Shown here: positions 51,511 through 55,963 of the stretch, one piece after another
How positions within the stretch are numbered: position 1 is the first letter of the stretch
Layout of the letters: every line of letters starts with the position of its first letter
Assembly: GCA_945787505.1 (NCBI GenBank)
Contig: CALZHC010000002.1
Location: forward strand, 1-64,000
Source: an uncultured Alistipes sp.
Lineage (GTDB): Bacteria; Bacteroidota; Bacteroidia; Bacteroidales; UBA932
DNA length: 64,000 nt
Reading direction: 5' to 3'
Made by a program: the position numbers and the translations under genes
The notes under the pieces: model-generated
Seen by the model: the letters and a program-made list of their open reading frames with translations, nothing else
Database searches by the model: none
What the model was told of the DNA's origin: nothing

Positions 51511-52686
51511 ATGGTTGTTGAGAACAGATATATGCGAAGAGGCGTCTCTTCATCAAAAGAGGATGTGCATAATGCCATCAAGAACATAGACAAGGGACTT
51601 TTCCCAAAGGCGTTTTGCAAAATTATTCCCGATATTCTGACCGGTGATCAGGATTACTGTCTGGTAATGCATGCAGATGGAGCCGGTACCAAATCATCGC
51701 TTGCATATATCTATTGGAAAGAGACCGGAGATATGAGTGTCTGGAAGGGAATCGCACAAGATGCTATCGTTATGAATACAGACGACCTTCTTTGTGTAGG
51801 TCTTACGGATAATATCCTGCTCTCATCGACTATAGGACGCAATAAGAATCTTATTCCGGGAGAAGTGGTCTCGGCCCTTATTAATGGGACGGAGGCTTTC
51901 GTGCAAAAGATGAAGGAAAACGGTGTCAATATGACGCTTACAGGAGGAGAAACTGCAGATGTGGGTGACCTTGTCAGGACTGTAATCGTGGACAGTACCG
52001 TATGTGCCAGAATGAAACGCTCTGATGTAATCGACAATTCGCGTATCGCTCCGGGTGATGTAATCGTCGCTTTGGAATCATACGGGAAGGCTACTTACGA
52101 AGAAGAGTATAATGGAGGCACTGGAAGCAATGGACTTACCTCTGCCCGCCATGACCTTTTTGACAAATATATTTCAAAGCTCTATCCCGAAAGCTATGAC
52201 CCTTCAATGCCTGATGATGTGGTATATACAGGAACCAAAAAACTCACAGACATAGAACCTGAAACCGGGATTACTTACGGTAAGTTGCTCCTTTCTCCTA
52301 CCAGAACTTATGCTCCGGTTATCAAATCAATTCTCGAAAAGTACAGGGCTAACATCCACGGAATGGTTCACTGTTCGGGAGGAGCGCAGACCAAAGTTCT
52401 TCATTTCGTAGATAACGTCAGGATCATCAAGGACAATCTTTTTCCGATACCTCCTCTTTTCAAAGCAATTCAGAAAGAGTCCGGTACAGATTGGAAAGAG
52501 ATGTTCAAAGTATTCAACATGGGTCACAGAATGGAGATTTATACCGATGCGGAAAGTGCCCGACACATGATAGAGATATCGCAATCCTTCGGAATCGGTG
52601 CGAAAATCATTGGAAGGGTTGAGCCTTTTGAAGGAAAAGAGGTTGAACTCGTGTGCGAATACGGTACTTTCAGATACAATGGATAA
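51511..52686 (+). CDS. purM: phosphoribosylformylglycinamidine cyclo-ligase
   Basis: Makes aminoimidazole ribonucleotide in purine synthesis. 391 residues, longer than the E. coli enzyme (345), as in other Bacteroidota. Visible AIRS motifs: MHADGAGTKSSLAY, NTDDLLCVG, LTGGETADVGD and MVHCSGGAQTKVLHF. Its 3' end overlaps the lipoprotein start by 8 bp. Confidence 0.93.
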   Translation: MVVENRYMRRGVSSSKEDVHNAIKNIDKGLFPKAFCKIIPDILTGDQDYCLVMHADGAGTKSSLAYIYWKETGDMSVWKGIAQDAIVMNTDDLLCVGLTDNILLSSTIGRNKNLIPGEVVSALINGTEAFVQKMKENGVNMTLTGGETADVGDLVRTVIVDSTVCARMKRSDVIDNSRIAPGDVIVALESYGKATYEEEYNGGTGSNGLTSARHDLFDKYISKLYPESYDPSMPDDVVYTGTKKLTDIEPETGITYGKLLLSPTRTYAPVIKSILEKYRANIHGMVHCSGGAQTKVLHFVDNVRIIKDNLFPIPPLFKAIQKESGTDWKEMFKVFNMGHRMEIYTDAESARHMIEISQSFGIGAKIIGRVEPFEGKEVELVCEYGTFRYNG

Positions 52687-54130
52687 AAGAAGACATATAT
52701 TCGGATACCTTTTCATTTATGTGCTGATACTTGCCGGCTGTTCGAATGAAGAGAAAATAGATAATATACTTCCTATTTCTTCCAAGTCTCTTTATGATAC
52801 AGCTTCAATCTACTACGCGGAATTCGACAAGTATCCCACTGATCTTTCCACATTGCCTATAGGTGTGATAGATGCCTCTTCAGAGGGCTTCTCAGTCGTT
52901 GAAGATCTTCTTGTAGCAGACTATGTGGATAATATCACCGGTGCACTGAGCCCTGATGGAATTCCCGATTTTGGTGGAGAGAATTTCCAGTTTCTGGCAG
53001 ATGAAGCAAATTCACCATACAGAAATTACATACAGAACGGCAATGTCGCATTCCTTAAGGAACAGGTAGTAAGAAACTCCCTTTTTATGATGGGCAGTTC
53101 TTTCTATAATCTCACGGTAGATGACTTCAGAAATGGAGTCAAGGAGAGGGTCAAGGCCATAGTGCTCTTCTCCAACCTCTCAGTAATGAACGGTATGGCA
53201 GAGGTGAAGGATCTCATATCCCGCTCCGGGGTGGATATCATCGTGGTGGGTGCCATAGAAGCGGCTCTCAGGAATACATTTGAAGGACGATCCAAGTCGG
53301 ACAACTACTGTGTCGGGGTGCTTGCATCATCAAATGGTGTGACAGCCCGCGAGTATGAGGAGACTATCCGAAGGATGGCGCAGGAGCGGGAGATGTCCGG
53401 TAGTATTCAGGTTTTCTTTCAGGAGGGAACGGGAATCAAAGAGGCCATGGACGGAGTTAAAGAGTACATCTCTCCCGATAGCTATGTGGCAAGAAAGGAC
53501 TACCGTGGACCGGGACTTGGTATCAGCTATAAGGATATAGACATCTCACTGATGGACAGATATAACTTCAATACAGAAGGAAACAACCTTCTAAGAAGGA
53601 TAAATCTCGGAGGAGAGATAAGTGATATACAGCTCAACAGTGTGGAGAACTATCTCAGGTATCACATCGTCTCCATTGTCGAAAGGCATAGGAGAAGCGG
53701 CAATAAGGTTCCTCTCTCTTCTATAGTACTTGCTGACTACAGGTATGCTGACTACAAGGATGTGCTCAATCAGATAATCGAAGAACTCTATAATTTCAAA
53801 AGGGATGGCGGCTTTCTATATAGGGAATCTATTTCGCCTGAGTTCAGATACATCGATCCTGTAGAAGAGGCTGCCAAGGAGTGCTACCTCAGTCTGAGAA
53901 AAAATCACGCCCTTGCTCTCAGAGGTACAGGTTCAAAGCTTTCTGCTTTTATATCTGTATTTCCTTCTGATAGACAATTAGATAACAAATATCTTAGAGA
54001 ACCCGGTAGCGAAACCATAACCTATAAGGAGGTGCCGTTTGCATCAAGGTATGTGGATCCGGCTGTTATTTCCAATATGGAAAAGAGGCTTCCTGTTACC
54101 TATTCTCTCTTAAAAAATACACTCTATTAA
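52679..54130 (+). CDS. glutamate-racemase-like lipoprotein, catalytic residues altered
   Basis: 483 residues from the ATG at 52679, with a lipobox ending at C21 (LAGC), so it is exported and lipid-anchored. Residues 60-235 follow the Asp/Glu racemase plan: PIGVIDASSEG in place of PIGVFDSGxGG, FLADEANSPYRNY for the family's GD-A-x-x-PYG segment, and KAIVLFSNLS where MurI has IACNT, so Cys becomes S165. CVGVLASSNGV matches the VGVLAT segment. No second LGCTHYP-type Cys is seen. The C-terminal 200 residues are unassigned. Racemase activity is unlikely. It overlaps purM and lies 3 bp before the fusion gene. Confidence 0.65.
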   Translation: MDKRRHIFGYLFIYVLILAGCSNEEKIDNILPISSKSLYDTASIYYAEFDKYPTDLSTLPIGVIDASSEGFSVVEDLLVADYVDNITGALSPDGIPDFGGENFQFLADEANSPYRNYIQNGNVAFLKEQVVRNSLFMMGSSFYNLTVDDFRNGVKERVKAIVLFSNLSVMNGMAEVKDLISRSGVDIIVVGAIEAALRNTFEGRSKSDNYCVGVLASSNGVTAREYEETIRRMAQEREMSGSIQVFFQEGTGIKEAMDGVKEYISPDSYVARKDYRGPGLGISYKDIDISLMDRYNFNTEGNNLLRRINLGGEISDIQLNSVENYLRYHIVSIVERHRRSGNKVPLSSIVLADYRYADYKDVLNQIIEELYNFKRDGGFLYRESISPEFRYIDPVEEAAKECYLSLRKNHALALRGTGSKLSAFISVFPSDRQLDNKYLREPGSETITYKEVPFASRYVDPAVISNMEKRLPVTYSLLKNTLY

Positions 54131-54133
54131 AAT

Positions 54134-55963
54134 ATGAATTATCCTGAAAACATATCTGCGGAAGAGATAGAGGCGTTGGAATTAGCGGATTTTCAAGGTC
54201 CGATAACCGTCGTAGAAAGTTTAGATCACGATTTTGCAGCAGCAGTGGAATATCTTTCAAAGGCTTCGGTGATAGGATTTGATACTGAAACCAAGCCATG
54301 TTTTACCAGCAATGCCCCCAGAAATAAAGTCGCCCTGCTTCAACTCGCAGATGATAAACAGGCCTTTATATTCAGAGTCAACAAATTGGGACTTCCCAAG
54401 CCTCTGGTATCCCTTCTCTCTAATCCATCAGTAACAAAGGTAGGTGCGGCAGTGAAGGAGGATCTTCGAGGACTTTTCGAGTATAGGAAATTCGTTCCAA
54501 AGGGCTTTGTCGATCTTCAGTCATTTGTGGAACAATACGGTATCGGGGTTAAAAGCGTCAAGAAGATGGCAGCTATTATTTTGGGCGTAAAGGTCTCCAA
54601 ATCTCAGCAGCTTTCTAACTGGGAAGCTCCTTGTTTAAGCGGTCCACAGCTAAAATATGCGGCCATAGATGCTGTTGTCTGTCACAATATGTATGTCACG
54701 CTGGTATCTGAATCAGGAAAAGACCCTAAGGCGGTGCTACCTGCAATTCCTAAAGTATATTTAAAGAAAGGAAGGACAGAATCCATAAAAAGATTTCATC
54801 CATGGATCTTTTCAGGGGCAGTGGCACAGATAGAAGGAAACCCTAATGAAGGTGAGGTTGTAGAGGTATACTCTTCCATGGGAGAGTTTCTTGCACTTGG
54901 CCATTTTCAGCAAGGCTCAATATCTGTACGTATCCTCTCATTTGATGCAAAATATCGACCTGAAGAGGGTATGATGCCTCTCTCGTTCTGGAAGGAGAGA
55001 CTCACTAAGGCGATGCAGATGAGGAAACTTCTTGGAATTGTTTCGGGAAGGAAATCAGACAAAACTGACTGCTTCAGGCTCGTACATGGAGAGGGCGATT
55101 CGCTTCCCGGACTGATTATTGATATCTATTCTGATGCGGCAGTGCTTCAAGCCCATTCTGTGGGAATGTTCCTTTCAAAGGATCTCATTGCCAAATCGCT
55201 CGTTGAACTATTCCCTAATATAAAGACTGTGTATGACAAGAGTGAGGGTACAGCTCCTTACAAGGCCGGTCTCCCACTCTCCGACGGATATATCATCGGG
55301 GATGGTGATGGCGAGAATAGCAGAATCGTTTACGAAAATGGATATAAGTTCAAAGTCGATTGGAAAGAGGGACAGAAGACCGGATTCTTCCTTGATCAGA
55401 GGGATAACCGCGCGCTGGTAGGAAAATATGCAAAAGGAAAGCGCGTACTCAATCTTTTCTGTTATACAGGTGGTTTCTCTATATATGCATTGGGTGCCGG
55501 TGCCAAAAGTGTCGTATCTGTAGACTCTTCAGCAAAGGCTATCGAAATGGTTGACGAAAATGTGTCAATAAACTTCTCAGACAAGAATGTTGACCATACA
55601 TCTGTATGTACTGATGCTATTGATTATGTAAAGAGTCTACCGGCAGGTGAGTTCGATCTGATGGTAGTGGATCCTCCCGCATTTGCCAAACACAGGGAGT
55701 CACTCGATAATGCACTAAGGGCATACAAGAGGCTTAATGCCGCAGCTATTGAAAAAGTGGCCCCTGGAGGGTTGATATTCACATATAGTTGCTCACAGGT
55801 AGTGGATAAGGTGGCGTTTGCACAGGCGGTATTCTCTGCTGCAGCCCAGACGGGAAGAAATGTCAAGATTCTCAGGCGCTTGACCCAGCCTGCAGACCAT
55901 CCTGTAAATATATATCATCCGGAAGGAGAGTATCTGAAAGGTCTTTTAATCTATGTTGAGTAA
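54134..55963 (+). CDS. fusion of DnaQ-like 3'-5' exonuclease and RlmI-type rRNA m5C methyltransferase
   Basis: 609 residues with no internal stop. Residues 30-195 are a DNA_pol_A_exo1 domain with all four acidic residues: D50 and E52 (FDTET), D110 (VKEDLRGL) and D179 with Y175 (YAAIDA). Residues 205-609 are RlmI-like: PUA domain (VYLKKGRTESIKRFHPWIFSGA), TGFFLDQRDNR, SAM motif VLNLFCYTGGFS, and VDPPAFAK. The linker is only about 10 residues. In many Bacteroidales these occur as two adjacent genes, so this looks like a recent natural fusion. It may process and modify rRNA. Confidence 0.88.
   Translation: MNYPENISAEEIEALELADFQGPITVVESLDHDFAAAVEYLSKASVIGFDTETKPCFTSNAPRNKVALLQLADDKQAFIFRVNKLGLPKPLVSLLSNPSVTKVGAAVKEDLRGLFEYRKFVPKGFVDLQSFVEQYGIGVKSVKKMAAIILGVKVSKSQQLSNWEAPCLSGPQLKYAAIDAVVCHNMYVTLVSESGKDPKAVLPAIPKVYLKKGRTESIKRFHPWIFSGAVAQIEGNPNEGEVVEVYSSMGEFLALGHFQQGSISVRILSFDAKYRPEEGMMPLSFWKERLTKAMQMRKLLGIVSGRKSDKTDCFRLVHGEGDSLPGLIIDIYSDAAVLQAHSVGMFLSKDLIAKSLVELFPNIKTVYDKSEGTAPYKAGLPLSDGYIIGDGDGENSRIVYENGYKFKVDWKEGQKTGFFLDQRDNRALVGKYAKGKRVLNLFCYTGGFSIYALGAGAKSVVSVDSSAKAIEMVDENVSINFSDKNVDHTSVCTDAIDYVKSLPAGEFDLMVVDPPAFAKHRESLDNALRAYKRLNAAAIEKVAPGGLIFTYSCSQVVDKVAFAQAVFSAAAQTGRNVKILRRLTQPADHPVNIYHPEGEYLKGLLIYVE

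Follow-up and report, generated by a model that had tools for sequence, protein, structure and literature searches.

The locus analyzed here raises two questions: whether a 3'-5' exonuclease and an RlmI-type methyltransferase, which are encoded by separate neighbouring genes in other Bacteroidales, have become a single protein, and whether such a fusion implies that the two enzymes work together. Both were proposed in a sequence-only reading of the window, i.e., the whole stretch of 64,000 nucleotides that was analyzed. The window lies in a Coprenecus genome of 1.5 Mb that is 99.7% complete (G000).

One frame encoding two enzymes

The gene extends from 54134 to 55963 on the plus strand as one uninterrupted ORF of 609 residues, with an ATG start and no internal stop; the single frame of the opposite strand that was translated is riddled with stops. 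In the encoded protein, residues 33-191 form a DEDDy 3'-5' exonuclease (PF01612), which a short linker joins to a complete RlmI-type part made of PUA and SAM-methyltransferase domains (residues 206-609) (Table 1). Three Pfam domains score above their curated cut-offs: DNA_pol_A_exo1 at 33-191 (78.4 bits), PUA_3 (PF17785) at 208-270 (72.2 bits) and Methyltrans_SAM (PF10672) at 391-555 (87.4 bits). The mass of the fused protein, expected at about 67 kDa, is 66.8 kDa as computed from the sequence. In a search of solved structures, no chain matched both halves. In a full-length structure model, both parts fold (pLDDT 86, pTM 0.65) and the linker has a pLDDT of about 73-80; with such a pTM and a lower-confidence linker, the model does not support the view that the two active sites are held in a set position relative to each other.

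Table 1. Features of the fused gene and of its upstream neighbours in the window.
Feature	Position	Strand	Basis or remarks
PurM-like (AIR synthase related) gene, first of the conserved cluster	51511..52686	+	PF00586/PF02769; upstream position conserved in the genus
Putative lipoprotein gene, separated from the fused gene by 3 nt	52598..54130	+	Directly upstream across Coprenecus and several genera of the family
Exonuclease domain, residues 1-192	54134..54709	+	PF01612, DEDDy; D50, E52, D110, Y175, D179
Val codon, residue 181	54674..54676	+	Two residues past the last catalytic Asp
Junction, residues 193-207 (ESGKDPKAVLPAIPK)	54710..54754	+	Comparison with split relatives; once exonuclease tail and intergenic DNA, now translated through
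GTG codon 201, at which a free RlmI (45.0 kDa) may start internally	54734..54736	+	Codon listing; putative function
ATT codon, Ile205	54746..54748	+	Position of the RlmI start ATG in split relatives
PUA-like RNA-binding domain of the RlmI part, residues 208-270	54755..54943	+	PF17785
SAM-dependent methyltransferase domain, residues 391-609 and stop	55304..55963	+	PF10672; DPPAF motif (513), SCS motif (Cys553)

An identical fused arrangement, in the same frame, was found in a second Coprenecus species (G001, JAQXKS010000044), whose DNA is 96% identical to that of G000 over 15 kb. The open frame, the Pfam domains and this second occurrence bear out the proposed single-chain fusion; an uninterrupted frame is conserved beyond one assembly, and a stop or frameshift at residues 195-208, which was to decide against a fusion, occurs in neither species. 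The two fused genes differ by 32 synonymous and 11 amino-acid differences, one of the latter in the linker, with no indel and no stop. The exonuclease half has a pS of 0.121 and a pN of 0.009 (pN/pS about 0.07) and the RlmI half a pS of 0.059 and a pN of 0.0064 (pN/pS about 0.11), values that indicate strong purifying selection on both halves. Given an intact frame shared by two species and the low pN/pS, neither an error of assembly nor the decay of one half is likely; for the exonuclease half, decay is ruled out by its pN/pS and its intact motifs. No second copy of the exonuclease gene or of the RlmI gene was found in the G000 genome.

The exonuclease half

All the catalytic acids claimed for the exonuclease, as well as the accompanying tyrosine, are present (Table 1) and invariant across the aligned split relatives. 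The succession D, E, D, D, the Tyr four residues before the last Asp and the DnaQ fold are those of DEDDy exonucleases. The initial label "DnaQ-like" holds at the superfamily level, DEDDy exonuclease of the WRN/RNase D type being more exact. An AlphaFold model of the exonuclease built from 32 window and locus sequences (mean pLDDT 95, pTM 0.91) has the WRN exonuclease as its top fold match in the PDB (TM 0.82), followed by Nibbler/mut-7, EXD2, diDNase, Rrp6, NrnC and RNase D. Likewise, the N-terminal 190 residues match DEDDy exonucleases among solved structures, and WRN comes first in the profile search (E 7e-29 for mouse and 1.4e-27 for human). The WRN exonuclease domain shares its fold, PF01612 and the catalytic D, E, D, Y and D with the fused exonuclease, but their identity is only 27% and the fused protein carries no helicase.

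The WRN exonuclease is a DNA nuclease, and the nearest solved exonucleases (WRN, Nibbler and EXD2) comprise both DNA and RNA nucleases. NrnC, RNase D, Rrp6 and Nibbler also have the superfamily and the catalytic residues in common with the fused exonuclease. The hallmarks of NrnC are a leucine wedge six residues past the first catalytic Asp and a phosphate cap with a C-terminal His (PMC8492067). An NrnC dinuclease was rejected: the wedge position is occupied by Cys56, is variable in relatives, and the exonuclease tail has no conserved His. RNase D was rejected as well, the fused protein having no HRDC domain and scoring 52.8 bits with TIGR01388 against a cut-off of 298.95. Since this exonuclease is closest to WRN and Nibbler and is neither NrnC nor RNase D, its substrate cannot be assumed to be DNA or RNA. 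Residue 181 is the only column conserved in at least 90% of sequences at which the fused exonuclease departs: both fused species have Val there and 46 of the 47 split relatives have Trp. The corresponding residue is Tyr in WRN and Trp in bacterial orthologues.

The RlmI half

Among solved proteins, E. coli YccW/RlmI (3c0k) is the closest to the C-terminal 400 residues, with a match from end to end (E 1.9e-76). As in this 23S rRNA m5C1962 methyltransferase, a PUA_3 domain precedes a Rossmann methyltransferase domain over the full length and the DPP and SCS motifs are retained, including the cysteine of the latter; the N-terminal exonuclease is present only in the fused protein. The methyltransferase had been described as complete, which agrees with the retention of every one of the 139 columns that show at least 90% conservation among relatives. 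RlmI is the best-scoring NCBIfam model for this half, yet with 282.8 bits against an equivalog cut-off of 712; this half is therefore RlmI-like rather than RlmI proper, and its target position is not assured.

NrnC-type nucleases clear pGpG, and a c-di-GMP link between RlmI and the exonuclease was considered. In E. coli, RlmI is inhibited by c-di-GMP (PMC11894153). No GGDEF gene was found in the whole G000 genome, so that control of RlmI by c-di-GMP as in E. coli is unlikely there; the link was dropped for this reason and because the features of NrnC are lacking.

Gene neighbourhood and distribution of the fusion

The order PurM-like gene, lipoprotein gene, exonuclease or fused gene holds throughout the genus and, in part, in the wider family. 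The putative lipoprotein gene has no Pfam or NCBIfam match. The PurM-like gene reaches 109 bits where the cut-off for purM is 236, and is probably not an ordinary purM.

Two of the 19 Coprenecus genomes carry the fusion, and the exonuclease and RlmI genes are separate in 15 others. These are orthologous genes in the same order and on the same strand, giving two proteins there and one here; the statement that they are separate neighbours in other Bacteroidales was thus confirmed in the split relatives. The proposed survey of Bacteroidota genomes was carried out at the levels of family, order and phylum, with samples that overlap and in which a strongly diverged fusion could escape detection. 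Among the matches listed, a full-length search of 399 genomes of the family retrieved only G000 and G001 as fused, no further fusion appeared in 393 genomes of the order or in 355 of the phylum, and the other sampled genomes are split, mostly with both genes side by side in an operon. Long reported frames suggested independent fusions in nine genomes from the order-level matches (G558, G534, G626, G675, G465, G685, G654, G488 and G385), all of which have split genes on retrieval. No exonuclease-RlmI fusion came up in searches of the literature. In the tree of exonuclease domains, the fused pair forms one clade (100/100 support), a topology consistent with a single gain of the fusion. Overall, the fusion is narrow, recent and restricted to two sister Coprenecus species. 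The exonuclease itself is near-universal at the family level, where 144 of the 145 high-quality genomes have it; only one other genome of the phylum sample (n = 70) has a detectable orthologue.

Origin of the fusion

In split Coprenecus genomes, the RlmI ATG (taken as the nearest fitting one) falls between 8 bases upstream and 3 bases downstream of where the exonuclease stop ends, and the N-termini of RlmI are mostly in the style of MNRVFIRKGR or MGSVVLKKGR. The junction alignment places I205-P-K-V-Y-L-K-K-G-R of the fused protein at this ancestral start position, so that the ancestral ATG is now ATT. The exonuclease stop codon is absent from the fused gene, and the linker derives from the tail of the exonuclease and the bases next to it. 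As relatives differ in frame and overlap, these sequences do not reveal the exact series of mutations. In 34 of the 399 family genomes, among the matches listed, the exonuclease and rlmI are in-frame and parted by one to a few stops, often one, none being fused. Therefore, fusion needs little change.

The account that we favour, and consider probable, is that two operon neighbours fused recently through the loss of a stop codon, which yielded a bifunctional protein whose activities are independent of each other. In the ancestor of the two sister Coprenecus species, the gene of a DEDDy exonuclease of the WRN/RNase D type would have lost its stop codon and the downstream rlmI-type gene its start codon, with a linker of about 10-15 residues between the two parts. 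This would result in one 67-kDa protein in which two enzymes retain their separate ancestral activities, 3'-5' exonuclease (on DNA or RNA) and cytosine methylation of 23S rRNA. We infer that the full-length protein is made and that both activities are real and act independently. The likely effect would be to fix at 1:1 the expression of two proteins whose genes already shared a transcript, and the gain from the fusion, if any, would be this locked co-expression. However, its single occurrence is odd for such an account, as many relatives lie one or a few mutations away; this could reflect a benefit specific to this lineage or a cost elsewhere.

Alternative readings

Translation may also start inside the fused gene, at GTG 201 or ATT 205, so that a free RlmI is made besides the fused protein. 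The GTG, which G001 also has, precedes the ancestral start position by four codons, and TAAGGCGGT (54727-54735), located 10 nt before ATT 205, matches the Shine-Dalgarno consensus TAAGGAGGT at 8 of 9 positions. However, the ancestral ATG itself is gone, 24 such 8/9 matches occur on the two strands of the window and are thus not rare, and Bacteroidota make scant use of Shine-Dalgarno-type sites. A free RlmI produced alongside the fusion is unlikely.

Functional coupling was proposed in the sequence-only reading: an rRNA precursor would be trimmed at its 3' end by the exonuclease and then methylated by RlmI. In another form of coupling, the PUA domain and RlmI would bring the nuclease to rRNA. 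Domain fusions often unite functional partners, enzymes that trim RNA (Nibbler) or process rRNA (Rrp6 and RNase D) are among the close solved relatives of the exonuclease, and the two genes are adjacent in eight of the 13 sampled order-level genomes that have both outside the family (hand count), an adjacency that is common but not fixed. Nevertheless, the best match in both structure and sequence is the WRN exonuclease, a DNA nuclease, and most of the phylum sample has RlmI without a detectable orthologue of the fused-type exonuclease. Moreover, the operon also carries the PurM-like and lipoprotein genes, which makes adjacency alone weak evidence. The known RlmI target, C1962, sits inside 23S rRNA (PMC11894153), far from a 3' end. 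With a fusion found in two sister species only and an internal target, we found no evidence that an RNA is trimmed at its 3' end and then methylated; such a succession is possible but unsupported, and coupling in either form appears improbable. Nor does the fusion imply joint work, the enzymes being separate proteins in all other sampled relatives: a fusion of operon neighbours points to co-expression and not to a shared substrate. A broader version would have the WRN-type exonuclease and RlmI of Bacteroidales cooperating in the maturation or quality control of large-subunit rRNA, with the PUA and methyltransferase domains presenting the rRNA and the fusion making the complex permanent; we regard it as a speculation with little chance of being right. 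Finally, an assembly or sequencing artefact that erased a stop codon or frameshift is scarcely credible: G001 was assembled from a metagenome and each of the two genomes is in many contigs, but two separate species share the frame despite their nucleotide differences.

Significance

The fusion is real, was correctly described and is lineage-specific; it is a small example of gene fusion and not evidence for a new RNA-processing mechanism. It provides a clean and recent case of two operon neighbours becoming one bifunctional protein, both halves of which are still constrained. This work also brings to notice an unstudied exonuclease that is near-universal in this family of Bacteroidales and whose gene lies beside rlmI. 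If the pair did share one substrate, a WRN-type nuclease would be linked to the maturation of bacterial rRNA.
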